The notes under the pieces were generated by a model, which was given only the letters and a program-made list of their open reading frames with translations, had not been told where the DNA came from and did no database searches. The translations under genes were made by a program, and so were the position numbers. Shown piece by piece: positions 14,982 to 50,848 of a stretch of 64,000 bases of DNA. This DNA is from Tubulanus polymorphus (taxonomy: Eukaryota; Nemertea; Palaeonemertea; Tubulaniformes; Tubulanidae). Every line of letters starts with the position of its first letter. Positions within the stretch are counted from its first letter, which is position 1. The DNA is taken from contig NC_134030.1 of assembly GCF_964204645.1 (NCBI RefSeq), positions 3,511,855-3,575,854 of the forward strand, in the 5' to 3' direction.

Positions 14982-15208
<227 letters not shown>

Positions 15209-16329: not shown

Positions 16330-19300
16330 TCAACGTACATCACTCGGGTTTGAATTACTGTCCGTCATGTCGCAGTATTTCTTATATTTTCCCAGTAGTA
16401 ATTGCCGGAGTTTTGCGACGCAGACATCACTGGCGCTTTTCGCTTCTTTGCTGATCAGTACAAAGTTCAGAAAACCATGCGGTAGATCCTTTACAACGGT
16501 GAGTCCGACATCGTTACCAATTCGTTGTAATCGTTTGGCGAACATGACCGAGTCGTCCAGAAGACTATCGAGTTCACTTGTCTGAAAGTATAACAAGGAA
16601 ATAAGTAAAGCATTCATAGTTGGGACGATCTGTATGTTGACTTCTTATCCAATAATGATTTACATTTAGTGAATTAAACTGGAAATAGAAACTCAAAAAT
16701 AGAAATGAATACTTTAACCCAGTTTTACTGCTGTATCAAGCCAGACAGTAAACTGCGTTTGGCGCAGAACCCATTGGATTATTACGGGCCCAACATGAAA
16801 AATGCTTGAAATTTTCCTACCCCAATTCATGTGTTCATTACCCATCATGGCTTTGACTGCCCCAGAATTCCCATAATGGTGGAGAAAAAAGACAGTGAGA
16901 TCTGAGGCAAGCGCAGTCTAGTGTTTGGGGCCAGTTACTCAAAAGTTGGTTAAAGATAACGATTGGTAGAACACTATATCCGTGTTGACGCGGATCCGTG
17001 TCATCTTCAGGAATAATGAAGATTCATTATTCCTGAAGATGACTATTAGGATATAGTCGAAACGTTGAAATAAACTACTATCTCGAAGTTTCATTTTCGG
17101 ACTTTTTATTATCATTGTGGGATTCTCTCCTCATTGGTTAAAGATAGTTTATGGATGAATGCCACTTTGTCAACTATCCACTGGTTAGCTCTAACCAACC
17201 AGCCTCTGATATAATAAATCATACTTACCACGAGTTCGATGGGAGGTAGTTGACTCAACCACTGATCTGACGCGTACCACGGTGACATCAGCGGATCCGA
17301 TGGTATCGGTAGATGCCGATACTTGTACAATCTCGGTTGAATGTCCTCTTTAATCAGTAAACTGGAAGGTTTAACGCGTTGCGGAGTCGTCGGTTGTTTT
17401 TTCGGCGATGATCCCGCGATTAACGCCGGAGTCGATGAACTCTTCGCTATCCCGCGATTACTACTCTTGTAACCGAAGAGTTTACTCAGCGAGAAATTTC
17501 CGTATTCGAGTTTCGACGAAATTTTCGACGTAATCGACGACGAAAACGCCATGAAACCGTCGGTTACGTCATCGTCAGGACTCGGCGTGATGTCCAGTTC
17601 TTCAGAACTGCGGTGGAAATGAACGACCGGCTCGGTAGCTGATCGGTGATTTAGAAGGTGCTGGGGCGGGCGTTCGGGAATCGCCTCCAGGCTGTTCGAT
17701 AGGTCTTCGTTCGCGGTTTGTAAACTCGACGGGCTCGAAGTGGAAACAGACGACGCGCGATAGTCAACTTCATCGGCCGGCGGACTAGAACGCGAATCGA
17801 CTAGCGGACTAGAACGCGAATCGGTGTTTTCATACGCCCGACTGTCGATCAACAACACCGGATCGCTAGAATATCGACGATGGGTATTAACGACTTTCGG
17901 CTTCGCGACGAACTCCGCCGACTTTTTCGATGAATTCGCTTCGGCCGTTGTTTCCGCGATATCCGAACAGGAAACCGACTTTTCGATTTCGGAATCGATT
18001 TTCGCTGACGGACACCCGTTAGTGGCCGCGGCACCGGCGACGACCGGTAGTTTCAAGTCTGTATCGGATTCGACGACGAAATCGGACACGGACACCCCGC
18101 TGTCGACACCGTCAGCTGAATCGTTGCGACAGTCGGCCATATCGGTGCCGGTTTTCGATTTATCACAGACTGAATTATTTTCACAGTTTTCCGCGGTTGT
18201 TAAAATCGAACTCGAACGAGACGACGAATCGTTCAAACTCGATGATTCGTTATCGATATTCTCATCAGCAGACGACGCCAGTTCTAAAATAATGTCGTCG
18301 CTTCCGAGTAGAAAACTGGCGCGCGACAATTTGTCGGGACTCGTTGAAAACTCGGATAGAGGAGTTGCGTAACTCGACGAGGTCATTGAGTCTGGAATGT
18401 CAGGGATATCGCTTTCATCCAAACCGGCATACGCTGAAAACAATCAATATCCTTTAGTTAAATACACATTCAGCGCCATTGATGAGATTCATAGCTTAAC
18501 AAGTGAGAGACATTTCATACTGATTCGTTGATTGCAGATTGAATTTCAACTAAAATATCACGTTCAGGGTACCATGGCCACTTTTTTACTGTTTTTCTGC
18601 ACGTGCGATTTGAAATCTGTGTGGTTAGGATATTATGTGTGAAATCATTTCATATTAGATCGTAACCACACGGACAGTGTTTCATCAATGTTTATCATTT
18701 ACCTGCTAGACATCTGCTGAGTAATCCTATTGGAAGCAGCGGATCCATAGTCGCTAACAGTCGCGACGGACCAGGCACATATCGCACGAGGGTCGGTGTG
18801 TAAACTGCTACGATGCCGTCAGGCATTCGGATTCCTAATTCAGCGGCTTTCAACGCGGTTGCAATGACGAGGTTTCCACCAGCGCTATCTCCTACTAAAC
18901 AGATGTGCTCACCAGTAGAACCTAGCGATAAATCAAGTAGCATTTCATAGTATCATACAATTTTTTTGATATATCATAGAAATGATGATGGGGTGAGATT
19001 GGAGCATGGTGCATTTTCACATCTTTTATCCTTTTCAACTTTGTTCACTATAAAAAACCTGGATTTTTTTCACATTTCTTATCACATTGAAATAATCAAA
19101 ATATGAATATTCTTTATGAAAATTATTGTGAGCGTTGATATGATGACGCAGTCTATAAAATCAGACTCATAAGAATAGGCCTCAATGAAAAGGAGCGAAA
19201 ATACACATGCTCTTCTTAATCAAGGCTGAAAAAGAAAGAACATTCTGCAGAAAAGCACATCAAAATATTCTGCCACCAAAATTTCAACTGATTTCACACA

Positions 19301-22300
19301 TTTTTGTAAATATTCACTTTTTTTTCGCTGTTCTCTACAGTGAACTTTGAGATATGTTCACAAAGTTCACATTAATTAATCGATCAATCTCACTCCTACA
19401 ATGATCTAAATTCCAGTACATACCTAACCAATCACAGTTATCGACAGCCCAGGCGTACGTGTAGATACATTCCTCTAAAGCACGAGGGTACGGGAACTGT
19501 GGAGCCAATGAGTAATCGATGCTCAATATCGGTACCTTCAAATCTTTGGCCCAATGACGAAGATAAGTCTAAACAAATGAATAGAAAAACATTCAACTTA
19601 ACTACAGGCTTTATAGTGAATCAGATACTGGTCTATCAGTGGCGGATCTGGAAGTGTAAGGCCTAGGTCCAGAAGAAAAGGTATTTCTCGGATAGAGCAG
19701 AGGATGAGGGTAAAATTTATAGGTTTTAACGATCTGTCTTGATGAAAAGGGTAACCTCGATAGGAAGGTAGGGATCTGAAACCCGGAGACCATGTCTAAA
19801 TCTACCCCTGTATACACGGTCAAACTTGGTTCAGTCACCATCAGATTGTCGCATTACTTAAGTTATCTTAATTTTGAGTTCCAATTATCATTTGCAATTC
19901 AACTTACTAACCGCAAGTTATTACTTTTTGATAATTCATCAACATAACATTTGTCCCCACTACGACGAGTTAAGCGAGTTTTACTTTACTTTATAAGCCA
20001 GTATTCAATTAAAATACCTCATGCGATTTAGACGACTGCGCTACCCAACCACCTCCATGACAGTGTATAATCAGACAAGGCGACGGAGGCGAAGACTTGT
20101 GGCCAAACATATCTTTCGGGCACAAATGTTCCTGGAATAATTCAATAAAAGCTACATTCAACATAAATTCATGAACGAAAACCTTATTTCAAAAGCCTTA
20201 GAACGAGCATAATCGGAATAGATTAGCTATTTGGCTGATTAGTGTCAATCATCATAATCGGGTATGTTGGTTGAAATTATCCAATATGGCGCACTCAACA
20301 GCGACTTCAACCCCCAAATGCTATCTTTAGATTAGATAATCGGCATACGCTAATCGATTATGATAACCAACGTTCATAAAAATGATGGATTATGACATAA
20401 TCCATGCTCATATTAAAACATTTTGCATAATCATGTACACTAATCGAGTGTTCATAAATAGGCCTCAAGTCTAGTCACAGTAGAAAGTTAAGAATGATCT
20501 CACCTGGCCCTCGCGGAACTCGTGAGATATGAGTCTAGTGTGTATAACTCCGGGGTCGCCGTGAGATGACGGTGGGTTAATCGTAACGAGACGAGTTCCA
20601 TCTCGGGATGGCATCTGATAAACTTCCGGTTGTATATCGATCACCTGACTTACTCTAACCGGTGGACAGACGATCATCGGTAAAGTCTGCACGATTTCGG
20701 TCTCCGCTAAATTCCAGAATCCTTTACAGAAATTCACATCCGCGTTGAAAACAGCATTGCAAACCTGAGGTAATAAATCAATATTATAGTAATAATAATC
20801 AAACTAAAATCAATTATACAAAAAAAATGTAAAATACAACCACTTTCACCGCTTTCTGCCAATTTACAAATTCCCTGATTTTTCCATGTGATCACACAAA
20901 ATTCCCAAAAAGTGAATCAGAGAAATTTCTAGGCTTAAAACGTTACAATTTGTTCATTTAATGAATCACATAGTGATAAAGAGAGGATTTCTCAACCAGG
21001 TTTCGTCTGGACCTTTTTTTGGTCTTTCGTTGGTGAACTGATTCACCCGATGAAGTTTATCTGCACTAGTAGTGAAAGCTCATAATATATTCTAATAAAG
21101 TCAGTGACCAGTACAATCTTCTCATGTAGGCTACATATATCTAGAAAAATGTCAGTTAAAATTGATAGTTACTTTCTGAGCCCTCAATTCAGGATTCATT
21201 AGATATTTTCCGCCACTCATAAGGGATGATGTGAACTTTGACATAGACGTGCCGTGAAGTTCAGCTTTTTCGTAGTTTTCACTGTACCACGCCAACGCCA
21301 CATTTAAACCATTCAGAGGTTTCTGCATCGATTCACAAAACTGTAATTCAAAATTTAGACGAAAGTTTATTGAAAACGAATTCAGTTTTGATGGCACTGA
21401 TCTGGTGGGATAGCTACAGGCACTTATGTAGGTAAAAAGCCCCAAGGTAATCCTGGGCCTAGTTTCCCAAGTTCAGCCTCTAGGCTTTCACTGCTTTCTT
21501 CATTTAAATGCTATTTGTCCAGGGTTTAAGATTATACGTCTATAAAACTTGGCCCTAGGGATTATTACCTGAGGATTTTAAGAGTATTTTGGGGTATTTC
21601 TTCCAAGGGAGAATTTTACATTGAGGGATAATTTAGGTGGGGAATTTGTCCCCTGGGTGATTTTACCTCGGGATATTTATATCAGGGGCTTTTAACTGCG
21701 GACCAAGGCACATGGTACTCATTGAATATTACCTGAAATCCTAAACATCTTCCAAAAAAACATTCCATATTGATCGTTTCGAGTTCTTTGAGCAATGCGT
21801 CAATCAGGGGACTTTCTCGTTCAAGAATTTCTTCCTTCGCGAACAGGTCGCCTTCCTGCGACCATTCGGGTAGTTTTTTGACGTACGCGCAACAAGACTT
21901 CAACTGTCCGAGGCAAGTCACGTACGTTTCGAGTTCCCGACAATAATAACCGCTGCGGAACAACAATGAATCACAATTCGCCGAAACGTACTTCGCCAAA
22001 CGCAAAATAATCAAACAACATTTACGAATAACGAGAATTAAACTTCGATAGCCGTTCGCGCGAATCGCGCCGAAGTCGCATTTCGGTGCGACTTCGAATA
22101 ACATAATCACGAGTTCTTCGACTCCTAGTTCTAAATGTTCGTAAAGCAGGCAGAACGTCGCGTGGAAACGCTGCCGATAGCTATCGGAACAGTCCTGGAA
22201 ATATTCCATATTCCTGATCGCCAGCGACCGTAGCGTTTTGAAAAGTAGTATTATCTCGCGATGTTCTTGTTCATCTTTTTGAGCGTTCATCATCTTGTTC

Positions 22301-22344
22301 AACGCGGTCGCATCGTTTGATGCGCCGTCATCGGTCGTATCCAT
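16330..22344 (-). CDS. LIPE: Hormone-sensitive lipase, 8 coding exons
   Basis: Coding exons: 22344-21733, 21340-21173, 20764-20504, about 20131-20018, 19568-19424, 18921-18703, 18433-17229 and 16581-16330. Phases match at every junction, giving about 991 aa. The first 350 residues are the HSL N-terminal domain. The oxyanion loop HCHGGGW is near residue 373. The nucleophile Ser446 lies in GDSAGGN. Asp near 917 in LLDDSV and His943 in LPHGFLNF complete the triad. HSL hydrolyses diacylglycerol and cholesteryl esters in the cytosol and on lipid droplets. The protein is about 215 residues longer than the short human form. The extra length is a Ser/Asp-rich insert in exon 7, the place of the phospho-regulated module, and it carries RRYSSDP near residue 690, a PKA-type site. 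The final intron holds nested mobile elements. Confidence 0.95.
16959..17135 (+). mobile_element. Hammerhead retroelement, family 1, copy A (nested)
   Basis: This 177-bp insert is flanked by an 11-bp duplication, GGTTAAAGATA (16948-16958 and 17136-17146). Its 5' leader CGATTGGTAGAACACTATAT and its 3' end TTGTGGGATTCTCTCCTCAT are shared with copies at 29.3 and 43.6 kb. Most of the left arm is deleted, leaving GTCATCTTCAGGAATAAT, which is palindromic with the right arm. The right arm keeps a complete ribozyme on the plus strand. The long target duplication and absence of coding sequence point to target-primed reverse transcription by enzymes supplied elsewhere. Confidence 0.8.
17027..17075 (+). 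ncRNA. Hammerhead ribozyme candidate, family 1
   Basis: Core CTGAAGA at 17033-17039 is followed by one extra T. Stem II is GACTAT (17041-17046) pairing with ATAGTC (17053-17058) around loop TAGGAT. GAA (17059-17061) follows, then ACGT (17062-17065) and T17066 as the predicted cleavage-site base. Stem I starts as C-T-T before the core against G-A-A after the cleavage base, then an internal loop. ACGT is self-complementary, so stem III may form only in dimers, as reported for Penelope-type hammerheads. Activity is inferred. The extra T after A9 departs from the strict consensus. Confidence 0.7.
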
Positions 22345-22790
22345 TTTGAGCGGCTCGATGTCAATAAGCCGCCAATAATAGTTAGAGTTTGGTCTTAATC
22401 AAAAAATGCCTGAAAATAATGAACAAACACATTCTAACGATTAGGCCAACACAATATAGAATTAATATTAGTAGATAGGAAGGTTATAAAAAACATTACG
22501 CTATAACCAAACTGACCAAACTAGATAAAGATAAAGACAGACAAGTAAAGAGTAATACACTCCTACACTACAATATTCACTCTTCGTTATGTCTTTCTTG
22601 GGCGACAGGCTCAACAATATAATCAAATTTGGTCAGCCTACACAGTAAATCATTCAAATTTACAATACAGTTGTTAATTGTCATGGTTGTTCACCTATTA
22701 GCCTAGTCTAGTACCTAGCCGTCGTTCTACACAAACAAATTGTTGTTGTAGGGAACCGGTAGGTAACAACGTCAACGTATTCAGACTACA

Positions 22791-23294
22791 AATGTCTATT
22801 TCAACCTGACTAGAGAGCATTCTGGGTGGCCTAGCTTGATCATTTTAGGTAGTACATACCTGATAAAGGTCTTAATAGGACCAGAAAGGACAGGCAGTCA
22901 ACCTAAATCATCATTTTCTAATCCATTTGAAACTGTACTGAAGGATATCTAAAAAGTCTTCACTGAAAGGGGTTAAATGAAGAAAATAGACTCCATGATT
23001 TGAAAGTTTAACAATATGTTTCCATGCCTACATACCAAACTTCAGTTGGTAGGCATGGAAACATATTGTTAAACTTTCAAATCATGGAGTCACAATTCTC
23101 TTCATTTAACCCCTTTCAGTGAAGACTTTTTGGATATTCTTCAATACAGTTTCAAATGGATTAAAAAACGATGATTTAGGTTGACTGCCGGTCCTTTCTG
23201 GTCCTATTAAGACCTTTATCAGGTATGTACTACCAAAAATTAGTGAGCTAGTAGGCCACCCGGAATGCTCTCAAGTCAGGTTGAAATAGACATT
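22791..23294. repeat. 504-bp near-perfect inverted repeat between LIPE and UFC1
   Basis: Arms of about 245 bp meet near 23040-23046 with almost no spacer. The left arm runs from AATGTCTATTTCAACCTGA and the right arm ends with its complement at 23294. Arms differ at scattered positions only. The arms contain GACCAGAAAGGAC, also found at 50500-50530 (left of another element), so this is probably a mobile foldback element. No terminal target duplication was clear. A transcript would form a long dsRNA hairpin. Confidence 0.9.
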
Positions 23295-23835
23295 AATAAG
23301 TAGGCCTAACCTGTAATTAATTAGGTCTAGAGACAATACATCACCAGATCACCAAGTTGTCTGCATTTCGATGAAAGTCCAAAAACATTTTTTTAAAGCC
23401 AGCCTTATGTTATCAAAATCCATAAACTAGAGCGTACAATGTTTACCTAAGTGAAGTGTGTAATTCGAACTTTGACAGCTGGCGTTATTTGAGATTGGGG
23501 TAACTCGAATTGATTATCCAGCCGTTCCCGATATGGACGCCATTCGCCAGAACAACAACCAAAGTTTCAGGTTTATTGAAATATACGATTCAAATCAGAA
23601 ATGTTTAATCATGGCTCTCCAATCTTATTCTCGGCTTTAAAAATCGTGAAACTTGGTCCTTAAAACGAGTGATTTTACATGGCTATTTTCAAGAGCCTCC
23701 AGGATCGGGAAATTTCTGATGAATGACTCCCGATAACAAGTTCATCAAAGTCCATATCCGCGATATGAAGATTTGAAGAGAATAAAACAAGTAATCGGAC
23801 TGAATAATCCGATCCGGGATTTCCCTATTGACAAA

Positions 23836-24797
23836 ATGGTGGACGAAGCGACGAAAAAAACATTGGCCAAGATCCCGATGCTAAAAACAAAAGCCGGGCC
23901 TCGAGACAAAGAGTTATGGATCCAGCGACTGAAAGAAGAATACCATTGCTTGATTAAGGTGAATTTTTGTGTCGATTCGTTCATTACTTACAGAGAATTG
24001 GCGTTAAATATGTCACAATTTCTTCCAACGAGTTGTACTAATTATCGAAAAAAACAGATTTGTCCGCTCTCGATCTAGCCTGATTAGTACTGTGTTCTTT
24101 TTCAGTACGTTCATAATAACAAGGAAGCCGACAATGACTGGTTCCGGCTAGAATCGAATAAAGAAGGAACAAGATGGTTTGGAAAATGCTGGATGATCCA
24201 CCAACTTCTCAAATATGAATTCGAAATAGAGTTTGATGTGAGTGTAGCCGCTTAACCTCTGCAGTCAAAGAGTTTAACGCAACTGTAATGAGGTCTTTAC
24301 GTTTGACTCACAATCTAAGCTCATCTCTCTTAAATTGTTTTTATCAGAGTGCATCCATAAAAAGTCTTATTTTTGTCTTGTATCAGTATGGTTTTGTCTA
24401 AAAATATCTATATTAAATTTTCTCTTTCATTTGTTGTTATTTTTGCAGATACCTATAACATATCCAACTACAGCCCCTGAAATTGCAATTCCTGAACTAG
24501 ATGGTAAAACAGCTAAAATGTATCGCGGAGGAAAGATCTGTCTGACTGACCATTTTAAACCTCTGTGGGCTAGGAATGTTCCTAAATTTGGTATAGGCCA
24601 CGCAATGGCATTAGGGGTATGTCTTTTTGGTTGCTTCAAGAAAATTTCTTCAAGCTTTACTAAATTCATTTGATGATGCTGATTTGTGTTGATTTTTGTA
24701 GCTCGGTCCATGGTTAGCTGTAGAAATTCCAGATCTAATAGAGAAGGGTATCGTAGTACATAAATCAAGTAATGAAGCTGCGACCACTTCATCATAG
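23836..24797 (+). CDS. UFC1: UFC1, UFM1-conjugating enzyme, 4 exons
   Basis: Coding exons 23836-23958, 24106-24237, 24449-24616 and 24702-24797 join in phase 0 to give 172 aa (human UFC1 is 167). The protein is a near-match to animal UFC1 throughout. The E2 active-site Cys is residue 116 within [14 protein letters not shown], the same number as in human. Other landmarks are [10 protein letters not shown] and [23 protein letters not shown]1 accepts UFM1 from UBA5 and works with UFL1 to modify targets such as ribosomal protein RPL26 at the ER. An in-frame upstream ATG at 23773 exists, but the start at 23836 (MVDEATKK) matches the family. An AATAAA signal lies at 24836-24841. Confidence 0.97.
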
Positions 24798-25099
24798 ATT
24801 ACATTATTTACAATTGGTGCTGATATCTGTTTTGAAATAAAGACTTTTATTTATTATTGAAAGAAATTTCAATGAAGTTTATGTATGTTCAGGTCTCTGA
24901 TAATAAAGATTATGAATGAATGGAATGATTAAAGTTTTTTTCACAATTTTCTATATGATTTCATAATGAAGGATCAGGGTCTGTTAAGAGAAAGTGAAGT
25001 GCAAAGAAATTCGAACAGAAACATAGATATACGTTAATCGTAAATTATAGATAACAAATAAAAAGCACCACTTGAAATCAAATAATTCAATTGTTACAA

Positions 25100-25880: not shown

Positions 25881-25912
25881 TCAAATATTGTCGTGAGTTT
25901 GGGTTTTTTCGG

Positions 25913-25949
25913 GACCTGACATGACAGGTAAGACCTGTCATGTCAGGTC
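25913..25949. repeat. Perfect 17-bp palindromic hairpin upstream of GATAD1
   Basis: GACCTGACATGACAGGT, three-base loop AAG, then the exact complement. It ends 82 bases before the GATAD1 start codon, so it is in the promoter or 5' UTR. In RNA it would be a very stable stem. It could be a protein-binding palindrome, a translation-modulating hairpin or a tiny repeat remnant; the sequence alone cannot tell. Confidence 0.9.
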
Positions 25950-26031
25950 TTGAGGTTCTGGAAACTCTGCAGACATACATCATTCCAAAAATTATTTTCC
26001 TTCCAATTAATTCGGAAAATCGTGCTAGAAA

Positions 26032-28937: not shown

Positions 28938-29331
28938 ACCGGATTGAAGATCTATGAGATTTTGAGAATTGTTAAATTGTGCGCATTTATTTAATTGTAT
29001 ATTATTACCTACTGCCTGTAATAAAATTGTCTTTTTATACGATACACATGTATTTGTTTTATATCTGATCTAGTATTATGAATTTGTAGTGGAACCTCAT
29101 TAAAATCACCTCACAGATAATGATTTTAAGAACGAAGAATTTTGTCCTAAATGGAATGACTTCAATTATTTCATCCTGGATATAACAAATTATTGGTATA
29201 AATATATGGTATTGCTTGTAACTGACTGATTTTTTGGTCCCCTAAAGGTCATTGTAACGAGTATCAATTGTCAAAGGCTGTGTATCCAGGAACAGGTGAT
29301 GTCTTCAGCTATCTTAAGATGCTGGAAGTCA

Positions 29332-29561
29332 TGTAGAGAGAATCCCACAATTATAACGAAAAAGTCCGAAAATGAAACTTCGAGATACTGTAGTTTATTT
29401 CAACGTTTCGACGATTTCCTAATAGTCATCTTCAGGAATAAGGGTATAGGATATAGTCGAAACGTTGAAATAAACTACAGTATCTCGAAGTTTCATTTTC
29501 GTTATAATTGTGGGATTCTCTCTACATCGCGTCAACACGGATATAGTGTTCTATCAATCGT
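29332..29561 (-). mobile_element. Hammerhead retroelement, family 1, copy C
   Basis: A 230-bp insert flanked by a 14-bp duplication, GATGCTGGAAGTCA (29318-29331 and 29562-29575). It is in reverse orientation: the leader complement GATATAGTGTTCTATCAATCG is at the right. Both inverted arms (AGAGAATCCCACAAT ... ATTGTGGGATTCTCT) are present. It lies between GATAD1 and the small gene at 30.4 kb. Confidence 0.85.
29398..29442 (-). ncRNA. Hammerhead ribozyme candidate, family 1 (decaying)
   Basis: On the minus strand CTGAAGA is followed by GACTAT, a loop, ATCGTC, then GAAACGTT. Stem II has one mismatch compared with the copies at 17.0 and 43.7 kb, so activity is less likely. The opposite arm keeps only the 3' half (ATAGTCGAAACGTTG). 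Confidence 0.55.
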
Positions 29562-30418
29562 GATGCTGGAAGTCAATTTAGCGGAGGGGTTGGCACATGA
29601 TTGGTACAACTGCTCATCCACCAATGAGTTCAGACGATAATGAGCCGAGAAGTTTAGATAACTAGGAGTGAAGTGTTTGCCCTAGTCTGTAACCTATTAA
29701 AACACTGGAGAGGTAATTAATGAACGGGATGTCATGTGAAATCAACAGTCACGTAATTCTCTAAAAAAAAACCATTAACAAGACTGCCATTTGTTAGGGT
29801 ATTTACATTTTCACTTGTTTTTATTTTTGAATATACAAACGGCTCATACATTACATAACACAGGATTCCAGTCGCCTCGTTTAACATACCCCTAAAATAC
29901 GCAGTGTCCAAATGTTTCGTATGTTTTTCAGAGGAGGGGATTAAGATTGATGAAATTTTGTACAAAATTTATATGAAGGAATCTGCGAGTCGAATCATCG
30001 CCCGACCCATGAACAGAATCGCTGGTTTAATAAAATCTATCTACGGTAGAACCAAACATAAAATATGATCCAAATGTTAAAATCCGATAAATCTCTCACT
30101 CTATATTTCAACCCGAACTCGATGAAACTTTCCAGTTCCAGAAGAAGCTGGAACAGAAAAGCTAAAGGGGTCATTCATAGATTATCCTAGAGTCCATGGG
30201 GTAATGAAGAGGTTACTTCACCCGATTAAGGTTAAAATTGCGTACTGGAACATATTGGGGAAGCAGGTTTGATCAACAACAAATCTGCGTACATACTTTA
30301 ACTTATGAATGATCCCAAACTGTGACATTGAGACCAAAACATTCAACATTTTACTCAGGAATTTCCATTCAAAAACACATGCACATAAACTTTACACATA
30401 AATTTGTTCTATTTCAAA

Positions 30419-31949: not shown

Positions 31950-31989
31950 ATCTCTTATTGCCACTTATTTGTTTATGAATCATTCTCAA

Positions 31990-34900
31990 TCAACACCTGC
32001 GATAGAACAGAACGTACGGAGTACAATTACTAGCAGACGATAACAACTCTTTGAACTGTTGCTGCGTGTACGCGTGCACCATAGTGTCATCGCATTCGAG
32101 CCATTTATCGACGAGACTCGAATTCATCAACATCAGTTTCGTTTCGCCGTTGTGATCGGTCATCAATTGTTCGGTGGCGACGTCGTTACCGTCGCCCTGA
32201 CCGTGCTCGGCGGGCGGGTTATCGAACGCGGTCCGATCGGCGGGCATCTTCACGTACGCCGTGTAGTGACCGGCGGATAGAGTTACGCCACAATGCATTA
32301 TCATTCCATACAGTTCATACCTGCAAGTAGAAATAACAGGGAAATGCTTAAAACACTCAGTATAATGATTACTGGTAGTACTAAAATCTATCTACAATAG
32401 AACCATGTTATAATCGATAATCAACATAAAAAGTGATCCAAATGTTAAAATCTGATTAATCTCACTGTACATTTACATATCTCTCACCCCAAACTATCAA
32501 TGAAACCTTTTCCAAGCACATTTTAATAATTACCATGATAATAATAATTAAGTCCGTAAATTTTTATAGATTTGTTACAGCCACATGCTCTCTCCTCGTG
32601 ACTACGCCTCTAATGGTGGTCAAACTCAATAAGCTATTCCCATGACGATCCGTCAAAGTTCTTAAATCCACCAATTATTATTTAATGTCTCTCCAACACT
32701 TGCTCAAAATCACGTTACATGCATAACATAAATCGCGCCTTCTTCATCTTTAGATATGTTCACCAGTGCACGAAATATTGGCACAGATCAGGACTGAGTC
32801 AAATTTGGCCCATGCCTAATTAGAGAGCGTTCACATGCTAAACACTCACTCGTTACTTAACAATGCTCAAAAAAAGCGCAAAGTGATCAGGGCTAATAGC
32901 TAACATTTTCATCATTCTAACAAAGGGGAAAATGCCTCGCTATGTTAATGTTTATACAAAGACAATATTTGAAAACTTGTAACATCTAAATACAGTACTG
33001 CTGATACATCTAATTAGAGTACTAATCTAGTACTGCTGATACCGGAACTTCTAAATACCGGTAATAGGATAGGATTGACTCACCAGTGTTGATTACAAGG
33101 CTGCACGCATTTAGCGCTGAAGCATGAAAAGTCGAACGGAATTATCACTTGGTCGTTGATTTTGGAAAGACCGCCGAAAAGACTGCAAAAAAGTATATAA
33201 AGTATTATACAATGCCTCGCCGAATATCGTTATCAAGAAGAGGAAGACATTCGCAATGTGTCACGAATAAAGACATAATACATCATCAGTTTAGTTTCAC
33301 CGTTGTGATCAGTCATGTTGACGTCTACAGCAAATTTCAAAACTTGTTCATGTTTTCAAAAATTTCGATCGTTTCATATTGGGTGGGTTTGATTCTCATG
33401 GTTTTAAGAGTACGCTTTCAGATATTTCAATCATATAAGACGAGAAGATACACAATATCCGTGTATGATGAAAACGAGAGAAATCCCACAATAACGAAGC
33501 CAAGATTGAAAAATTCTATATCAGAATGATTATATTCGAGGAGCAACGTTTCGGCTAATAACTGTTAGCCATCATCAGGCATACCTCATCAACGTTGCTC
33601 CTCAAATATAGTCATTCTGATATAGATTTTTTCAATCTTGGCTTCGTTATTGTGGGATTTCTCTCGAATCCAATCATGTAGTATTAAATTAGTTATTCGG
33701 GTTTTTCTTTCTTACCCTGAAGTCGCTTTGAAACGTTTCAAGTGGAAAGTCAACACGTCCGGCATCGTCATGTAATGCAGCGAGCGTTCGGCTTCGCAAA
33801 GATGTTGACAGGTATCACAGTAATAACGATTGTCATCTCGTAACCTCTCCACTTCCGACATAGCGTTCAACATCCACGAGGTCGGCTTTTTATCCGTATC
33901 AATATCTGTATCGTATAAAACATCTACAATTCATTATAGACCGTTCCATAGCAATAACTACAGACTTATCATTGTTCATTACATGGTTGTTACAAATCGG
34001 GCAATCAGATATTGCTTGATGTTTCCCTAACCCTCGACCAAAAATGTCCCTGATTAAGATATCCTCAGTGGGGGTTGTTTCTTCTCAAGATTATTAAACT
34101 TATATCAAGATTATCACTTATTAAATTCTAGTGCTTCTCATCACCGGCAAGGACAAGACTCCAAATAATTCTAATTCCTCTACTTTTCCTTGTTTCTCAA
34201 GAAGAGTCAGAATTCCCTGATTTTCTCTGCAGGGAAAAATTATACCAAAATTCCCTGATTTATCATCCAGAAAAATTACTAGTGGTCCAAGGAACATACA
34301 CTGCAGAAACCTACGACCTTAAAACTAACCACAATCAAAGCTATTAAACACCTCCTGGAGTAGGCTAAAAATGGGAATCCCCTGATTTTACCAGAACCCG
34401 ATCAAATACTCACCAAATTCGGAATCATCCTCCTCGTTTTCCTTGTCATCTTCGTCTCCATCGTTTCGTATTCTGACGGGAATTCCGATATCCTGAAAGT
34501 TCTCGTTACGCGACGTACAACTTTCACATTCGAGGCACTTCGTTTTCAGAGTCATCTCTCCCTGGAAGATCTCCTCGACGACGTGAACGCGTTTCTCGTC
34601 GTATTCGCTCTGCAGCGTCGTCTGCTTGTGCAGCGTCGCCGAGATTTCCGGATATTTCCGAGCGACGTCGGAATCCTCGAGTTTACGCAGGCAGACGACG
34701 GGCGTTCGAGCGCCGTTCATCGCGTCGTGTTTCAAACGTTCAGCAGTTGATTCGCTATGATTAACGTCGTCCACGGTTACGACCCCTCGTCGCTGTTCCG
34801 AGTCGTTGAACAGAATCTTTCGCGCCGATGAATTCGGTTTCGTAAAACTGTGATTTAATTTCGCTTGTCGTAACGGCGTTTTACGAATAGTTTTTGACGC

Positions 34901-37900
34901 CGAAGCCGTCAGTCGTTTATTCGTCGTCTCGACCGTCGATTCTAACGCGTTCGTATCACTGGCGGTGGCGCCACCGCAGTTATTCATCAATCCAATGCAC
35001 TCTTTATTGCCACCGCGTACTTTAATCGATTTATCTGCGCTGTGATCGACGGTGGATGGTTTCGTGACCCTCGCGCCGCGTACACCTAAACGCTTACAGG
35101 GCGTCGTCGCTTCCGCCGTGAAATACGACTTGATTCCCTGCGTCTGCGCCGATGAAGTTTCCGGCGACGATTTTCGTTTCGATTTCGCTGAGTTGTTGCC
35201 GATTTTGTCGTCGGTATTAATGGCGGCGGCGGGGTCGCCGGATGAGACCGTGCGTCGTCTACGCCGTCGCTTGTCGGCCCGTCCATCGTCCAGCTCCGCG
35301 CTACCGTCGTTAGATCGTTTACGAGGATTACGCGACGATACGGCGCCGGTTGAACCACCGCCGCGTGAACTACGACGTAACGTTTTCGCGACCGGAATCA
35401 GAATCGACGGCGCCGATCGAGTTTTACTCGAGTTCTTCACGAGTTCATCGTCCGAATAAACCGCACTGATCGGAGTAACCGAACGTCGCGGTCTTAACGA
35501 CTTCATCGTATTCGCTCCGTCGTCATCTGTTTCCGCATCCGAACCCGCGTTTTTAGTCATACTGACAGAACTTTTCGACGGTCTATAAGCGTGGATTGAT
35601 CTACGCGGACTCACGCAGCCCTCGGTTCTGTTCGACATGATTCGCTCCCAGACATCGTCCTCCGGTGTCGATCGCCTCGACTGGCGTTTACTGTACGTTT
35701 GAGAGCACGGTCGCACCGGTCTGACCGGTGACTCGCGACACATCGGTCGATCAGCCTCGCACGCCTCGGCGGCCTGCGGAATCATCGGCTCACTGTCGAA
35801 TCCATCCACCCGGTCCACCGGCGCGGTCGCGTGGATCGAAATCGGTTTCTTCAAATCGGTTGAGACGTAACAATCATTTTTAATCGTCGCCGGTTGCAAC
35901 TGATCGAAATATCGCGTATTTGGTGCGTGCTTCTTACTCAATAAACTATCATCATCGTCATCATCATCGACTTCGATATCTTCCTCCTTCATATCATCAA
36001 AATTTTCCTCCTTTTTCGCTTCATCCTTCACCCGGATCACCGGAGTGCTATCGCTTTCTATTTTCGGGGACCATTTTTTCTCCTGGTCCTCTTTAACTTC
36101 TTCTTTGACTCCGAGCTCTTCGATTTTTTCGTCGATCTGTACGGAATATTTGTTCGGAGAGGTTGGCAGACGTCTGCCTTGCATCGTCGGAGACAGTTTA
36201 CACGGACTGACGTCACTGGCGCCGCGAGAAGGTGATGAGGTGTCCTCCTGTTTAACGACGGCGTGGTGCAACTCGACCGGAATGTTCTGATTGATTTGCA
36301 GGTCTTCTAATCCGGGCATTTGACGCTTTTCGGCGACAAGATTTTTCGCGGAATCTTCAACATAACACAGAACACAACGAAGCAATTCTTGAGCATCGTG
36401 CTGTAAATTACCTTCAAACATTGGATTCAATAATCTGAAAACAAACACGAAACACTTATTTGAAATCTACTGTTTCACATACATTTAGAAACAAAAACAT
36501 CCAAACCCACTTCAATCAAAGAATCTACAATCAGGTTCCACCTATAGTCCGATATCAGACAAGCCACTGAAAGTTTCACACAATATTTTGATGGCGAAAC
36601 TTTGAAAATTCCACCGCAGTGCGATGTATAACGGACCATACCGCTTTATTACATCTACACCACAGTGCAGTGTATAATGAAAATACCCTGTTCCGCGATT
36701 TATCGCAAGTTACCAGTACTAATCATTAGCAATGTTTGACAGATGTCATCTTTCAGTAGAGATTATAATCATCGGTAAGTCACATGGATACACCGCACCA
36801 CAGGGTACACGCGTAAACCTACTGAAAAGCGAATAAATTCACCTGATACAATCTAGTACTTCATAAGGTCTAACGGCGAGAGAATCCAAATCAGCGCCCG
36901 GTTGGTAAGACTTCTCGACACTTTTCATATCCGAAAACAGCTAAAAATAACAATAAACACCTTTGAATGATGAACAACTAAAACTTTCCTGACTAAATTC
37001 AAAACGTAAATCTAAACGATGACACAGACCTTCCCCAATCCAGTAACCAGTTTCCATTCTGTTGACATTTTTTCGTCGTTACCCTTCAGAATAAAATAAA
37101 TCAACCTTCAAATATCGACATAGGACGTACTAACCCGAATAAGTATTGTACAGCTAGCTAGAAGCGTTGATACATACCTGTTGTTTTCTTGCTTCATTGA
37201 AGAACTGCAACTCTTTAGATAAGTAGTGAATTCCTCTTACAAAACGCGGAGTATAGCGAAGAATCTGAATGACACTGTTCAGAAAACATGTGTTACCTGA
37301 AACAATACATCATTATTAGTAGAATAATCCATTTCCATAATAAACCTTCATCAAGAAGTCAGAATAGAGTTATTCAACATTTCAACTATATACTTATTAT
37401 AAGTGCTAGTGTAGTCCTAAACTACTAGCTCAATGAAACATTCTGGGGGCAGTTGCTCAAAAGTTGGTTAAAGATAACCGGCCGTTAAATACCATAGTAA
37501 CAATGAAATTTCAATTGTCACCATATCAACTATCCACTGGTTAACTCTAACCAACTTTTGAGCAACCGGACTCTATTTCTTCATTGTTAGTGTGAGATTT
37601 TATATCATTGTTACAACACGGACTCAAGACAATGTTTCAACAATGGTTACCCAGTTCTACCTGATTAAAACATTTGATTCTAGGGTCCAAACATTGAGAA
37701 AGAATTAATATCAATCTGGACAGTAAACCTCTGATCGATACTTACCCATATTGACGAGAGAAGCAACCGCCGCCAATTTAGGCTTATCAACTTCCGATTC
37801 TTGATAGGCATCAGCACACGCATCACTTCAATAAATATAGAAAGTCAAAATCAGTCGGACTGAATTCAAACAAGTATTTCGTCCGAAATTGGACACTTCT

Positions 37901-38888: not shown

Positions 38889-38911
38889 AGGGGGTGGGGG
38901 GGGGGTGGGGC
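38889..38911 (+). repeat. G-rich run with quadruplex potential
   Basis: Runs of G5, G10 and G4 separated by single T bases. Such runs can fold into G-quadruplex DNA; it lies in the probable first intron of USP1. Confidence 0.7.
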
Positions 38912-42304: not shown

Positions 42305-42455
42305 AGTAAGACGCTATATCCATGTTGAAACGATAATATGAAGAGAATCCTGCTATGACAACGAAAGAAAATAAACGTCGAATAAACTACTAGCTGAAGG
42401 AAACATTTTCGGACTTCATTTTTTTCCGTTATTATCGTGGGATTCTCTTTTTGTA
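42305..42455. mobile_element. Degenerate relative of the family 1 hammerhead element
   Basis: Contains CGCTATATCCATGTTGAAACG (compare the family 1 leader), AGAGAATCC, ATAAACTACTAGCTGAAG, TTTTCGGACTT and TTATCGTGGGATTCTCT in the family order. The ribozyme core is not intact. Confidence 0.6.
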
Positions 42456-43576
42456 AATGGTCATATTATAATATAAGACAGTTCCGCTTCAATTCAAAAT
42501 AGGGGCACTTAAAAAAGATTTACTGAGAAAAATATTGAATATATGAATGTAACAAGACACTTTTCCATGGCAACAAACTGCATGCTCGAAACAGAGCAGT
42601 GAAAACCTCTTAAATTGTCATGTGGTCATGAAATAAAGTTGAAAGTGCTAAATTGGCAGCAATGCTATCACGTTACTGCGTGCAAAATTATGAAAATGCG
42701 CACTGAGATATCACCATATATTTGCTCCGGCTTGTAGATGCTCAAATTACACCAGTAGAAATGAATTATTCACAAATATATCAGTGAAAAAGCTCAGTTA
42801 GCATTTCAAGTGTTTTACAGGGAGCAGATTCGTTTGAAATGGGTACATGGACTGTAGTTGATGAAAGACTTAGTTTCTGTGATTTGTAATCAATAATTAC
42901 ATTTTTTTCTAATGATAAATACGCCATCCAACGATAGAAACCAGGGACAAGTCCATAGAACAATACGAGAAGTCAATAAAAATGCGATTGCCATTATTGA
43001 ATCATAAATAATTCTGTTTTTTGACAGTAAAATCTGGATCATTCGAGAGTTTTACACACAGAAAGCTTTGACAAATGGCTGCCATTTCCTTTTCCGTTCG
43101 CTCGAAAACGCACGTTTTGTTGTTTATTCGAATGGGACACACACACGAACGTTTCTCTGGATATTATTCGAGCAGCTTCAGGTATAGCTGCCAGCTATAT
43201 CTACCTTCGCAGTGACAATAATAGTCGGTAGAACAGGTGAAAGCGTCTTTTGAAATGGCTCGTAATTCCAGTCTATCGGCTTCTTAATGTAACCTGACAC
43301 CTAGTCGTACTGACTTCCTGGTAACATCGACTCGTCGTCACGATACCAGCGTGCGCGACATTGTTTCTTTTTGTTAGCGTTCTTTCATCGTTACGAGACA
43401 GATTTGTGGAAAGATTCTGAATTGAACGTTCTATACTTGTCGGCTCTACTTTGTTCATGTTTCAGTTCACTCACCCGATGAAGGTGCTATTGTCTTGGGA
43501 CACACTGCGAGTTATTTCTACGAGAATAAACATTGCGAAGTACAAAGCATGTTATGATTGACTTTGTAACTCAATC

Positions 43577-43896
43577 ACGATTGGTAGAACACTATATCCG
43601 TGTTGACGCGATGAGGAGAGAATCCCACAATGATAATAAAAAGTCCGAAAATGAAACTTCGAGATAGTAGTTTATTTCAACGTTTCGACTATATCCTAAT
43701 AGTCATCTTCAGGAATAATGAGATACTACAGAAATTATGAGATATATATATACAATCCAGAGACAAAGAGACTAATTCAAGTAATCAGAGATGATACGAA
43801 CAGTCTTTGATATAGTCGAAACGTTGAAATAAACTACTATCTCGAAGTTTCATTTTCGGACTTTTTATTATCGTTGTGGGATTCTCTCCTCATTTA
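43577..43896 (+). mobile_element. Hammerhead retroelement, family 1, copy B (most complete)
   Basis: A 320-bp insert flanked by an 11-bp duplication, GTAACTCAATC (43566-43576 and 43897-43907). Order: leader CGATTGGTAGAACACTATAT, left arm AGAGAATCCCACAATGATAA, complete minus-strand ribozyme, a 90-bp loop that matches 2101-2162, then a right arm ending TTGTGGGATTCTCTCCTCAT. Arms of about 100 bp are nearly perfect complements. The inverted duplication resembles the rearranged terminal repeats of Penelope-like elements. Confidence 0.85.
43672..43718 (-). ncRNA. Hammerhead ribozyme candidate, family 1
   Basis: Minus strand: CTGAAGA (43712-43706), T, stem II GACTAT with ATAGTC around TAGGAT, then GAAACGTTG at 43686-43678. 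Identical to the plus-strand ribozyme at 17.03 kb. The right arm keeps only the 3' half (ATAGTCGAAACGTTG). Confidence 0.7.
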
Positions 43897-45442
43897 GTAA
43901 CTCAATCCTTGGAATATTTGTGCTTTTTATTTCTTATTTTCCTACAACAGTAACCTGTTGGTTGCTATTCGCCATTTTAACATAATAGTCTGAAAGAAGG
44001 TCAGTCTGGAGAACCACTCCTGCAGCTAGCTGCCTTTCAGCCACTTCAAACCGATGTCACTCCCGTCTCGGAAAGTGGTGACAAAACACGCCGATTCGAT
44101 ACGACGTGTTTCGAGGGTGCTACTATAAATCTCTAGAAAAAAATCCCCGTGCATTCTCGACGACTGAACGGTGTGTTAAATGGCACCATTAGTAATCATC
44201 CGGCGACGCGTAAAAACATAACGGGGAAAATCTATATAACCTTGTTGCGTAGCTACTAGCTGGAGGTCCTACTGTCCAATGAAAGATTTTACACGATAAT
44301 TTCATCAAATATTATGCAGAACTAAATTTCAAAAAGCTACTAATTAAGTGCTGTCCATGGAGATTTCTTGAAATATACACTAGTGGTTAGAAACTTCTGG
44401 TAGGGCGATGTCTAGTAATCAAATCCACAGGAAATCCTGCTTATGGGCGCTAGGCCAGCATCTTAGCTACGCATTTTTCGCCCCACATACCCGACAAAAC
44501 TTTTGAAATAATCAAACCGTTAGAAAGAAGGGGTATTCCAGTACAGGTATGTTCGGTACATCCGAGCCGAATATTGATGGGAATCCCCCACCGTGTTTGG
44601 TACCCTTACTCCATCCAAAAAAATGGCCAGGGAATCCACTATTTCTTTATCAATCTGTCTCTGATGACCAATGGATTTCATACCTTGCAGTAATAAGCTG
44701 ACATTTATGAAAGACCTCTATTTCATTCCAAGTACTATTTTTGGGGTCCGGCCGTACGCATCTTGAAGCTACTAACCTAATTGTGGTCTGATGTCTGATT
44801 TCCGCACTATAGTCCCGATTAACTGAGATTTGGTTTCATAGTTCGACTATAGTAACCAAAGGTCGCCCAGGCTTTCGATTCAAGAGGTCATTGGTTCGAA
44901 TCTTTTTTTGATTCTTAAGTTTATTGATAGGTGGTATTTCATTGAATAAATCCCATGTTTTATTTTTGAATAGGAGATGAAGATGCCTTTTAGTGGAATA
45001 AAAAAAACTTCCTTGACTCCAAGACTGCATTTGGAATAACATTTGCATTTTGCATTCGTCGTATTTACTCAGTTAGCCGATATTTGGCGGTGACGTTGTA
45101 GGAGTCGTTATCTCCAGTTAGAATATTGGAATGATCTGTAGTTGGTTGATTATGATTAGAAGGAATTCAAGAACAATCTGCTAGACATTTTCGAAATCAC
45201 GTTTTTCAATTTGTACCCGGTATTCATACATTCTACGCCATTCATCTTTTCCGAGGGGATTTATAATGTCGGGTAAATTTGCTTATCCTAGGAAGCTGTA
45301 ACGGTCTCGCATATCCGAAATACTGTAGTAAATCGTAAATTCAGCGTCCGTCGCTCGACTGAAAACGTTGCCTCCAGACGAAATGTTTCGATGTTTATGT
45401 ACAATTTATCAAGTTTAATTTCAGACTACAAGATAATTAAAA

Positions 45443-48400: not shown

Positions 48401-48789
48401 TGGCTGCGGCAAGTGATGAACATTCTGAGGTGGCTACGGCAAGTGATGAACAGTCTGAGGGCAAACAAGATGACGAAGATGAAACGACTGGTGAAAATGA
48501 CGATCACGCGCCAGACGATAACGACGAGGAAACTGAAAACCTAACGACGGCTGATGCTGATCGTGGACAGACTGAAGACGAGAAACAAGAAGAACCGGAA
48601 AACGAAACAAATCAAAATACGAAAGGAAGCGACGATGACGAATACCTATCAAATCTAGAAAAGAAATTAGACGCAGATTTAAACGATCTTATCGAAGGAA
48701 ATCAGACGAAAAATCCACTTTCTCGCGAAGAGGTCGAAGAAAACAAAGCTGCAATTGAAGATATATTGGCCGGCGATTTCTTCAAGTGA
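45443..48789 (+). CDS. Unrecognised Glu-rich, probably disordered protein
   Basis: Exon 1 (45443-45649) encodes a very basic start, MSSRHPRKPRRERKPKPVLP, then RQELIRRVRKKKRKANPGMS and a helical SLADRILIQRKVMEENRRIH segment. Exon 2 (46708-48789) begins after TTTCAG, keeps frame (HEE-DNEIN) and runs to a TGA, giving 762 aa. The donor, GTTCGT, is weak. Residues 70-230 are polar with SFSSMPISELD and RSESSIITLPPVESPERCPS; 270-690 are repetitive Glu/Asp/Thr/Asn-rich with no domain. The last 45 residues (YLSNLEKKLDADLNDLIEGN ... AAIEDILAGDFF) look structured and helical. Basic head, acidic middle and ordered tail suggest a scaffold or cytoskeletal linker, but the family was not recognised. A leader intron may end at TTTCAG near 45424. 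AATAAA lies near 49004. Confidence 0.8.
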
Positions 48790-48840
48790 TCGATCATGAA
48801 ATAATTACAATTTTATAGACGCAGACATTAAGGTTGCATA

Positions 48841-48960
48841 CATCTATCCCTACCCTACCTGTGGGAGAGGCTTCCTTGCCCGGATTGGCCTCACCAGCAG
48901 CTATTTCCAAACTTATCGCAGCAGCCCAATAGTCAAGTGATGTCATGGTCATAAACATTC
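48841..48960. repeat. Dispersed repeat, related to 54486-54560
   Basis: CCCTACCCTACCTGTGGGAG, AGGCTTCCTTG and GGCCTCACCAG recur in order at 54486-54560, and GGGCCTCACCAGAC with a CAGCTCAATAGT-like block recurs near 55668-55712. Probably a short interspersed element; here it falls in the 3' UTR of the Glu-rich gene. Confidence 0.6.
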
Positions 48961-49019
48961 CCGATCGTTCTTTCTGTTTTATACAGTCCGAATGAATTAT
49001 TCCGAATAAATAAATGAAG

Positions 49020-50480
49020 TTTATTTCTCAAAATATGATGTACAATATACATAATCAAAATGTGGAATATTAACACAATGTACTTTATTGAGAGGATTAG
49101 AGACGATTAAGTTTAGAGACGATTATCGTTTTAATTCGACGTCTTAAGAGATCATATTCTACTTATCCATCTGCCCACGTAGAAAATCATATTTTTTACA
49201 TAGGTTTTGCACTTATTCAGAATAATGACTAATAGTTTTATAAGTTTTTCGAGGTATGAAAAACGAGGAAGAAAATACAATTGCGCCATGCTTATCTGCG
49301 TTCGGTTTATCTTTTCATTATTCTCTACAAAGACTCGTTTCTAAACATAGAAATTTGGTGATTTGTCTGACAGTCGTTTGACTCGATGAATTTCGTTTCG
49401 TTTTGATAGGGCGCGCTGAATTTCGCTGACGTTGAACTTGAACCTTATTGTTCCAAATAGTACATATTTATGTATGAGATACGTGCGATAAAATATAAAC
49501 ATCAATACAGGACAGTAGATAAGACAATGAAATGAACACCTAATTTGAATAACGGAGTAACAAAGAACAGTTTTTATACAAGATCCCCCAAGGGCACAAT
49601 GGCAAGCCTGTCAGCTTTTCATAAAATGGCAAATGATGCATTTCGTGGGTTATATTCGTCAAAATACACTGTGCCAGCTCCAAGTCAATACGAATAATAT
49701 ACACAATACAATTCACACACCTGACGATGATCTCTATGGTGAGATTCATAAGTTTTCATAAGTAGCACAGACAGCGACTGGAGCTGGCAGGAACAAATAC
49801 CTGTGATAAATCATTTCCCTTGGTCTTATTGATTTGAATGCGGCATAGAATTTAATTTTCTGAAATTTGCTCAATAAAACAAAACTGAATTGGATCTGAT
49901 GCTTGAGTTGTTCAATTAAGTAAATTTGAATTAGATTTGTTATTCTTGCAGACAAAAATCTGATTGAATTTGCAGTTTGAGCACATGGCTAATTAGCATA
50001 TCAGGTCCTCTATCCGATTTGAGAAAATTTTTCCCAGACTTTACATAATTGCCAATGATATTTTCTGTAGTGCAAATAAAAATATTCCTCTCAAAAACCA
50101 AATCAACTAAAGATTTTACAGAAATCGATTTTGAAATACAATCTTTAATCTTATAAAACAGTAGAAATTGCGTTCAGATTTTCGCGAAAAAGCTCATATA
50201 AATTTTAACGAAGCCCTTTTTCAAAATTCAGCTTTATAGGGTTTGGAGAATCGATAATGCTTTAATGAATGATTTGTATGAATATATGCTCAGTGTTACA
50301 CAGTCAAAGAGCCTTTGCTCAGGAAACCATGTCAACATTTAAATTCGCTCTATATTTGTATACGTAGCAATAGAATACGGCAGGCCTAAAAAATGTTAGT
50401 TGACAGACTGTCATCTCCTCGTATTTAACGAGGAAGTTATAAGTAACCCGACTCTAGTGCACATCGGGCGGCCCAGCCAA
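49020..50480. other. Spacer without recognised gene
   Basis: AT-rich; nothing recognised beyond the right-hand GACCAGAAAGGAC block (50500-50530) shared with the large inverted repeat at 22.8 kb. Confidence 0.5.
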
Positions 50481-50582
50481 GTCAGGTAACAAAGGTCCCA
50501 ATAAGACCAGAAAGGACCTGACAGCTGACCCAAAACACTGGCCCCTAAACACCCAAAACTGCGCCGAAGGACTGCAGAAGAG

Positions 50583-50848
50583 TAAGATAAAATCTCACTA
50601 TTTACAGATTAAAAGAATTTAAAAACCAGAATTTATTTATTAAATCTAAAATATTTAAAAGACACGACGTTTCGATCTCACCCTAGAGATCATCGTCAGG
50701 TGTGAGTCTAGGGTGAGATCGAAACGTCGTGTCTTTTAAATATTTTAGATTTAATAAATAAATTCTGGTTTTTAAATTCTTTTAATCTGTAAATAGTGGG
50801 ATTTTATCTTATTATCCGTTCACCACGTTTGAGTGTGGTCATCGTTCT
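50583..50848 (-). mobile_element. Hammerhead retroelement, family 2
   Basis: A 266-bp insert flanked by a 12-bp duplication, ACTGCAGAAGAG (50571-50582 and 50849-50860). Reverse orientation: the leader (GAACGATGACCACACTCAAA on the minus strand) is at the right, and the arms run TAAGATAAAATCTCACTATT ... to its complement AATAGTGGGATTTTATCTTA. Arms exceed 100 bp and are almost perfect. A decayed family 2 end is also seen at 59265-59370. Confidence 0.85.
50661..50704 (-). ncRNA. Hammerhead ribozyme candidate, family 2
   Basis: Minus strand: stem I CAC before the core pairs with GTG after the cleavage base. Core CTGACGA (50699-50693), extra T, stem II GATCTC with GAGATC around TAGGGT, then GAA, ACGT and C (50666), which makes the preferred GUC cleavage triplet. 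This is the closest of the copies to the textbook motif. Confidence 0.75.

Follow-up and report, generated by a model that had tools for sequence, protein, structure and literature searches.

The stretch of DNA analysed here (the window, 64,000 nucleotides of the Tubulanus polymorphus genome, 3511855–3575854) raises the question of what the short elements are that carry a hammerhead-like RNA motif at 17.0, 29.4, 33.56, 43.7 and 50.68 kb, and by which route they were inserted. An earlier note, made from the letters alone, had taken them for three foldback families of non-autonomous elements. We believe, with a probability of roughly three in four, that they are short insertions made by the RT-endonuclease of related Penelope-like elements (PLEs) of at least four families, from uncleaved RNA, with two cDNAs joined.

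All five copies were located in the window by the pattern CTGANGAT-N18-GAAACGTY, which has five matches there and none in 100 shuffles; the looser CTGANGA-N10-40-GAAAC has 8 matches against a shuffled mean of 1.22. Together with a sixth, partial copy, the motifs are:

17033–17066, forward strand: hammerhead motif copy 1, from C3 to H17, stem II GACTAT/ATAGTC, predicted cleavage after 17066
29402–29435, reverse strand: hammerhead motif copy 2, stem II GACTAT/ATCGTC with one mismatch
33545–33578, reverse strand: hammerhead motif copy 3, stem II GGCTAA/TTAGCC
43679–43712, reverse strand: hammerhead motif copy 4, stem II GACTAT/ATAGTC
50666–50699, reverse strand: hammerhead motif copy 5, stem II GATCTC/GAGATC, cleavage triplet GUC
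49715–49746, forward strand: sixth, partial copy, the 5' part of a family-2 motif, GAAAC lost

The loop is 6 nt long in each of the five, and the 6-bp stem II described earlier, with its pairing kept, is complete in four of them; the copy at 29.4 kb retains 5 of the 6 pairs.

In the genome searched (268 Mb, 77 contigs), CTGANGA-N9-29-GAAACGTY has 4213 matches (2130 + 2083) against 42 (20 + 22) for the reversed pattern, which serves as a control for the core letters of the motif, since the copies were chosen by those letters. Among the first 100 genomic places listed, 66 have at least four uninterrupted stem II pairs and 34 have shorter stems or none; the longest stem requires a 1-nt insert after A9 at all 66 paired places, and a T follows A9 in all 73 of the 34-mers among the same 100, which upholds the extra T noticed at this position by the earlier note. 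The dominant stem II sequences among these places are GATCTC (19), GACTAT (16), GGCTGT (10) and GGCTAA (9), the third belonging to a fourth family (GGCTGT/ACAGCC) that is common in the genome among the matches listed. The core letters CUGANGA ... GAA, together with A15.1 and the H17 cleavage site, are those of a minimal type I hammerhead, and stem III consists of ACGU only, without a loop, so that a single copy is unable to form it and two copies are able to. The observation of the motif is confirmed in the window and in the genome; its letters and pairing are those of a minimal type I-like hammerhead motif, in which the self-complementary ACGU replaces stem III and an extra U follows A9.

Covariation was assessed on 44 distinct 42-mers of 45 collected, a chance match at window position 43144 having been dropped, and over nine pairs: those of stem II and those of a 3-bp stem I, in which the bases immediately preceding CTGA pair with the bases that follow directly on the predicted cleavage site. 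The covarying stem II reported earlier is borne out, and stem I, absent from that account, covaries along with it. Paired cells make up 91.9% (97.0% in stem II, 81.8% in stem I) against a shuffled mean of 69.7%, with none of 500 shuffles as high, and 26–47% when the pairing is slid; the covariation score reaches 0.689, where shuffles give 0.270 and slid pairings no more than 0.207. Three of five measures beat all 500 shuffles, while the other two equal them (pairs changed on both sides, 8 vs 7.1; pair types, 20 vs 20.1), and the change is mostly between families, so that it represents few independent events. The pairing of stem I places the cleavage site after GU(U/C).

The Rfam hammerhead models, by which the earlier note had proposed to check its reading, gave it no support: there are no Rfam matches in the window at gathering threshold, and no hammerhead at E ≤ 10 either in the whole window or in short slices around the copies at 50.7, 33.5 and 43.7 kb. 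The below-threshold matches are mainly to miRNA, snoRNA and other models, with long hairpins scored under their gathering scores. The energy model prefers, for single motifs of families 2, 3 and 4, an extended non-hammerhead hairpin that uses the core bases; a double hammerhead on two strands is predicted at −13.1 to −21.9 kcal/mol, and other cofolds lower, at −17.9 to −36.1 kcal/mol. The 50.7 kb foldback transcript is predicted as one long hairpin (−153.5 kcal/mol) that occupies most of the ribozyme, so solo foldback transcripts are unlikely to form it. By analogy with other PLE hammerheads, predicted self-cleavage would require two motif copies, that is, a dimer. These lowest-energy folds are also what one would expect if the covarying RNA were a conserved hairpin at the 5' end that binds protein or serves reverse transcription, and not a working hammerhead. 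We consider this unlikely: the hammerhead core letters are conserved, although the copies were selected by them, and cleavage is known for PLE hammerheads elsewhere, in one case with the element's protein (PMC11167929).

What ties the elements to PLEs is coding sequence. The family 1 and family 3 copies of the window are 80–99% identical to loci that bear GIY-YIG, and the motif with at least six stem II pairs is present in 20 of 30 GIY-YIG loci (family 1 in 15, family 3 in 4, family 4 in 1), several of the 30 overlapping or neighbouring one another. Locus L069 (family 1) has the order pLTR, motif, tail, ATG and an ORF of 799 aa, in which Pfam finds RVT_1 (5.7e-10) and GIY-YIG (1.5e-5), that is, RT and GIY-YIG in one ORF as in a PLE. 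Its pLTRs are direct repeats (1183–1514 and 4041–4371) with an inverted copy (83–377), again the PLE arrangement, and carry motifs in tandem at 1380 and 4237 and an inverted one at 181; the arm end lies at 1480, the tail runs to about 1518 and the first in-frame ATG is at 1519.

Long open frames with RT/GIY-YIG sequence adjoin families 1 and 3, and related coding sequence adjoins families 2 and 4. The coding segments beside the motifs of families 2, 3 and 4 are 48–71% identical to the L069 protein: 59–71% in family 3; 53% over 373 aa in family 2 (L112, a broken copy with an inverted piece); and 52% in the family 4 locus, where the match is confined to 84 residues. Pfam has no match to the 399-aa family 2 piece; a further locus taken as family 2, L111, has no ORF of at least 110 aa; and PDB sequences contain no relatives at E ≤ 0.001. 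The motif thus lies beside PLE coding sequence, as had been anticipated for a type I-like hammerhead with self-complementary stem III. Judged by these matches, the window elements look like truncated insertions of related PLEs, not independent foldback families. They are laid out as follows:

16946–17146, forward strand: copy 1, family 1; element 16959–17133, 13-bp target duplications (TSDs) TTGGTTAAAGATA at 16946–16958 and 17134–17146
16959–16992, forward strand: PLE tail of copy 1; inverted stretch of 21 nt at 17000–17020/17023–17043, left arm mostly missing
29318–29575, reverse strand: copy 2, family 1; element 29332–29561, 14-bp TSDs at 29318–29331 and 29562–29575, tail at the high-coordinate end
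33435–33668, reverse strand: copy 3, family 3; arms 33475–33550/33591–33666 (76 nt), tail about 33435–33474, imperfect TSD, read by eye
43566–43907, reverse strand: copy 4, family 1; element 43577–43896, 11-bp TSDs at 43566–43576 and 43897–43907
43611–43695/43809–43893, reverse strand: arms of copy 4 (85 nt), from the inverted-arm comparison; tail 43577–43610
50572–50860, reverse strand: copy 5, family 2; element 50583–50849, 11-bp TSDs CTCTTCTGCAG, read by eye
50583–50687/50707–50811, reverse strand: arms of copy 5 (105 nt), from the inverted-arm comparison; tail about 50812–50849

Of the foldback families first proposed, the inverted arms hold in four copies (55 + 32 nt in copy 2); copy 1 is hardly a foldback, the 21-nt inverted stretch being all that remains, the families are PLE-derived and not independent, and a fourth exists. 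The window also contains exons of UFC1, hormone-sensitive lipase and a ubiquitin hydrolase, which point to animal DNA. TTAGG repeats form two clusters only.

Long inverted arms flanked by TSDs are the marks of foldback or MITE-type DNA transposons with terminal inverted repeats, in which the hammerhead match would be incidental. This explanation is hardly credible, as the TSDs of family 1 vary between 9 and 15 bp and extra PLE sequence stands at one end, where symmetric ends and a TSD of fixed length would be expected; moreover, covariation extends to both helices, and the sequence recurs in full PLEs, these PLE matches being decisive.

The asymmetry of the ends becomes clear in a larger sample. 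Family-1 arm ends have 768 exact genomic matches (385 + 383), and among the first 100 places listed there are, within 5 kb, 35 head-to-head pairs against one ++ and one −− pair; 26 of the 35 are shorter than 400 bp. We examined 27 family-1 elements, namely 24 of these 26 short pairs and the three window copies. In all 27, one arm carries the PLE "tail" (ending at +124 to +143) and the other lacks it (+96 to +109), for which the chance, were the arms independent (at most one half for each element), is about 7e-9. TSDs of 9–15 bp, with a mode of 13, are found in 25 of the 27; a tail of 30–40 bp at one end with a variable TSD is the PLE pattern. With the 25 family-1 sites turned so that all tails point the same way, the tail-side flank is rich in A and the opposite flank rich in T, a pattern suggesting that a similar A-rich motif is nicked on each strand.

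In families 2 and 3, searched with single-copy probes that may miss divergent tails, one tail is present in 13 of 20 loci, none in 7 and two in 0; where both arm ends were found (n = 8), six have one tail, two none (L024, L099) and none two. The one-tail rule is therefore strict in the family-1 sample, which the systematic TSD search covered, and mostly seen in families 2 and 3.

This rule bears directly on self-priming, in which a single cDNA or antisense RNA would fold back onto its own end and be copied into a palindrome, a route that the available text of PMC3846280 proposes or favours for rotifer Penelope elements. Many junctions are indeed near-perfect palindromes at GAATAATGA/TCATTATTC, and two two-armed family 2 elements have no tail on either side, as symmetric products would. 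Snap-back, however, predicts the same outer end on both arms, against which stand the 27 of 27 family-1 elements with one tailed and one untailed arm and, in families 2 and 3, the one tail seen in 6 of the 8 elements with two arms. We regard self-priming as quite unlikely, and return to two cDNAs joined head to head.

Where, then, do the arms stop on their inner side? For 20 loci (L070–L089, 40 arms), taken by arm end and not by motif and restricted to pairs below 400 bp, 28 of 40 inner ends fall within −11 to +2 of the motif (24 of 40 with other alignment settings, both counted by hand); five run beyond −36, past the promoter, and seven stop inside, one of these at the cleavage site (+34). 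In solo copies with the motif, identity to the PLE-like upstream sequence breaks off between −3 and −9 in 31 of 41 arms of family 1, between −3 and −8 in 13 of 17 arms of family 2 and between −4 and −9 in 7 of 12 arms of family 4, while in family 3 all 9 arms lose it between 0 and −12; one family 2 row and one family 4 row are the reference itself. In the window, the arm of copy 4 that carries the motif passes the predicted cap site to −86, TATA included.

An initiator-like TCA stands at the arm stop in four families, its A at −7 in families 1, 3 and 4 and at −4 in family 2; compared with family 1, the arms of family 2, like its initiator, tend to end closer to the motif, with overlapping ranges. 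From the start of the TATA box to the initiator A the distance is 31 nt in families 1–3, 29 nt in family 4 and 42 nt in a fifth PLE (see below), and 9 of 11 ORF-bearing loci offer the 31-nt spacing. Family 2 has 154 matches with TATA 20–28 nt before TCACAC, of which some overlap and one or more came together by chance; most of those listed share one spacing. A rotifer pLTR with TATA box and initiator, and a tail on one inverted pLTR, are described in the available text of PMC3846280. The junctions often show the palindromes mentioned above, and microhomology at the joins blurs arm ends by a base or two. The simplest reading of these ends is that both cDNAs ran off the capped end (the predicted cap site) of uncleaved RNA.

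A ribozyme-cut template would lead one to expect arms starting at +35. Internal ends at +33 to +37, counted by hand, number 3 of 29 (L081 at +34, L109 at +34, L004 at +37) against about 1.5 if ends were uniform over about +3 to +100, and those of families 2–4 were sampled via an intact motif and are biased accordingly. The 38 rows of the internal-end table comprise 8 with no inverted arm, 12 (6 elements) with the motif in both arms and 18 internal ends; L024 and L108, which the automatic assignment placed at +35/+36 but which have the motif in both arms, were counted by hand with the elements whose arms reach past the motif. A clustering of breakpoints at the cleavage site or loop II was tested and dropped, the internal ends being scattered. 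That ends at the cleavage site are not enriched also counts in favour of the conserved 5' hairpin discussed above.

The same ends speak to the proposal that the elements are retrozymes or other non-autonomous elements, whose ribozyme would cut a multimeric transcript into single units, to be circularised and then copied back. It has in its favour the minimal hammerhead motifs, whose ACGU could pair between copies, and the three internal ends at or near the cleavage site. As far as the available text of PMC7229834 goes, animal retrozymes share with our elements a type I hammerhead in a short non-coding repeat, but are direct tandem repeats with monomers of about 300 bp and circular RNAs, whereas the elements here are inverted and PLE-derived. 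Short direct tandem repeats with one hammerhead each were not found for family 1 among the first 100 of 768 matches listed, where only two pairs within 5 kb share an orientation against 35 head to head; arm ends number 28 (or 24) of 40 near the predicted cap site and 1 of 40 at the cleavage site; and PLEs with long open frames carry the same motif. A retrozyme origin is, on this basis, improbable. Likewise, the view that non-autonomous members use the ribozymes to process their RNA is not supported, given the adjoining PLE coding sequence and a family-1 sample in which most arms end near the predicted RNA 5' end.

The insertion by a PLE protein that we propose would proceed from a transcript starting at the TATA/Inr promoter, with a putative cap site 4–7 nt upstream of the stem-III-less hammerhead, so that the ribozyme would be the first structure of the PLE RNA. 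The protein would nick both target strands about 13 bp apart, and one cDNA would be primed per strand, from two fixed RNA start sites at about +138 (the "tail") and about +101. Both cDNAs would mostly reach the RNA 5' end across the uncleaved ribozyme and then join head to head, leaving a foldback flanked by a TSD in which just one of the two arms is tailed. The order of steps, and which strand is primed where, we infer. The one-tail rule would arise because the two cDNAs are separately primed, and two such cDNAs of uncleaved RNA argue against both self-priming and ribozyme-cut templates. More tentatively, and with the odds against it, the dimer-only hammerhead at the cap might serve as a concatemer sensor: RNAs with two copies, from tandem read-through, would pair via ACGU and be cut into units, while single-copy capped transcripts would stay whole as mRNA and insertion template, and insertion would be an obligately asymmetric twin priming, with one cDNA from each of the two fixed sites, one per nicked strand.

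Comparison with Penelope/Poseidon-type PLEs, namely Anolis PAc (PMC11167929) and Adineta Penelope (PMC3846280), is instructive. As far as their available texts describe them, these share the single ORF with RT and GIY-YIG, tandem and inverted pLTRs, an optional tail of 30–40 bp at one end and a TSD of about 10 bp. PAc also has its hammerhead in the pLTR near the ORF start, and both target strands are cut and extended; two adjacent start sites bound its tail. By analogy, this fits the two-cDNA model, although no start-site difference between strands was seen in PAc (PMC11167929). The RT start sites inferred for the present elements precede the first in-frame ATG; those of PAc are inside the ORF (PMC11167929). 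Catalytic mutants of the Anolis ribozyme leave insertion in vitro unaffected, the main substrate being unprocessed RNA (PMC11167929), with which the scarce ends at +35 agree. Unlike in these PLEs, short ORF-less foldbacks are common here (26 pairs below 400 bp among the first 100 of 768 places listed), exactly one arm is tailed in 27 of 27 family-1 elements, and the motif abuts the predicted cap site.

PLE insertion, and the reason for keeping a weak hammerhead, have been called poorly known (PMC11167929), and the role of the PLE hammerhead "still a mystery" in the available text of PMC7761336. The numerous simple, TSD-flanked insertions of a single genome are relevant to both questions, by indicating two separately primed cDNAs per insertion and templates with an uncut ribozyme. 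Neither a ribozyme at the cap site nor a strict one-tail rule is mentioned in the literature surveyed, in the texts available, which is weak evidence of novelty, two key papers lying outside the survey.

Finally, the motif has close relatives. Minimal PLE hammerheads were reportedly described by Cervera and de la Pena in 2014 and by Lunse, Weinberg and Breaker in 2017. The CChMVd hammerhead, the subject of a 2001 paper by de la Pena and Flores, reportedly has, like the present motif, one extra core nucleotide after A9, in a viroid RNA with an ordinary stem III. Minimal PLE hammerheads without stem III, possibly active as dimers, are established in the available texts of PMC7761336, PMC7229834, PMC6155905 and PMC6466107; these hammerheads agree with ours in the type I layout, the reduced or absent stem III, the thousands of dispersed copies and the supposed dimeric form. 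Unlike them, the motif here has an extra nucleotide after A9, U in four families and A in a possible fifth, a variant that may already have been reported. The fifth, a distant PLE (L062/L063, 28% over 392 aa), has its motif at two places 5.5 kb apart on contig C4, where the candidate hammerhead has A and not U after A9, a 3-bp stem II and, read by eye, a 5-bp stem I.

Copy 1, the family-1 hammerhead-bearing fragment, is seen by eye to be hosted by a small inverted-repeat element (CAAAAGTTGGTTAAAGATA...) at window 16936-17210. A relative of this element, also recognized by eye, lies without interruption at window 37452-37566 and contains the TSD sequence of copy 1 a single time, as would an empty site for the insertion.

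Short imperfect inverted flanks, TGCCAGCTCCAAGTC and GACTGGAGCTGGCA, are visible by eye on either side of the partial family-2 motif (window 49660-49800), and these are absent from the repeat finder output.

A distant Penelope-like element (PLE) was found elsewhere in the genome:

G000:C4:51000-59000 (loci L062/L063), distant PLE with amino-acid similarity to family 1

The identity to family 1 is 28% across 392 aa, and the element carries two hammerhead-like motifs spaced 5.5 kb apart, in which A follows A9 and stem II has only 3 pairs.

The window also contains:

14849-15268, long TA repeat whose open frames on the two strands are just the simple repeat itself
22932-23150, nested inverted repeats (repeat finder), one of 43 nt (100%), the other of 56 nt (93%)
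21685-24670 and 31993-36466, host gene exons (Pfam)

The nested repeats form a foldback distinct from the hammerhead-bearing copies, with a weak match to a miRNA model in the Rfam search of the window. Pfam assigns the host exons to the N-terminus of hormone-sensitive lipase, to UFC1 and to a ubiquitin hydrolase split into two pieces, one of which scores under the Pfam cut-off.
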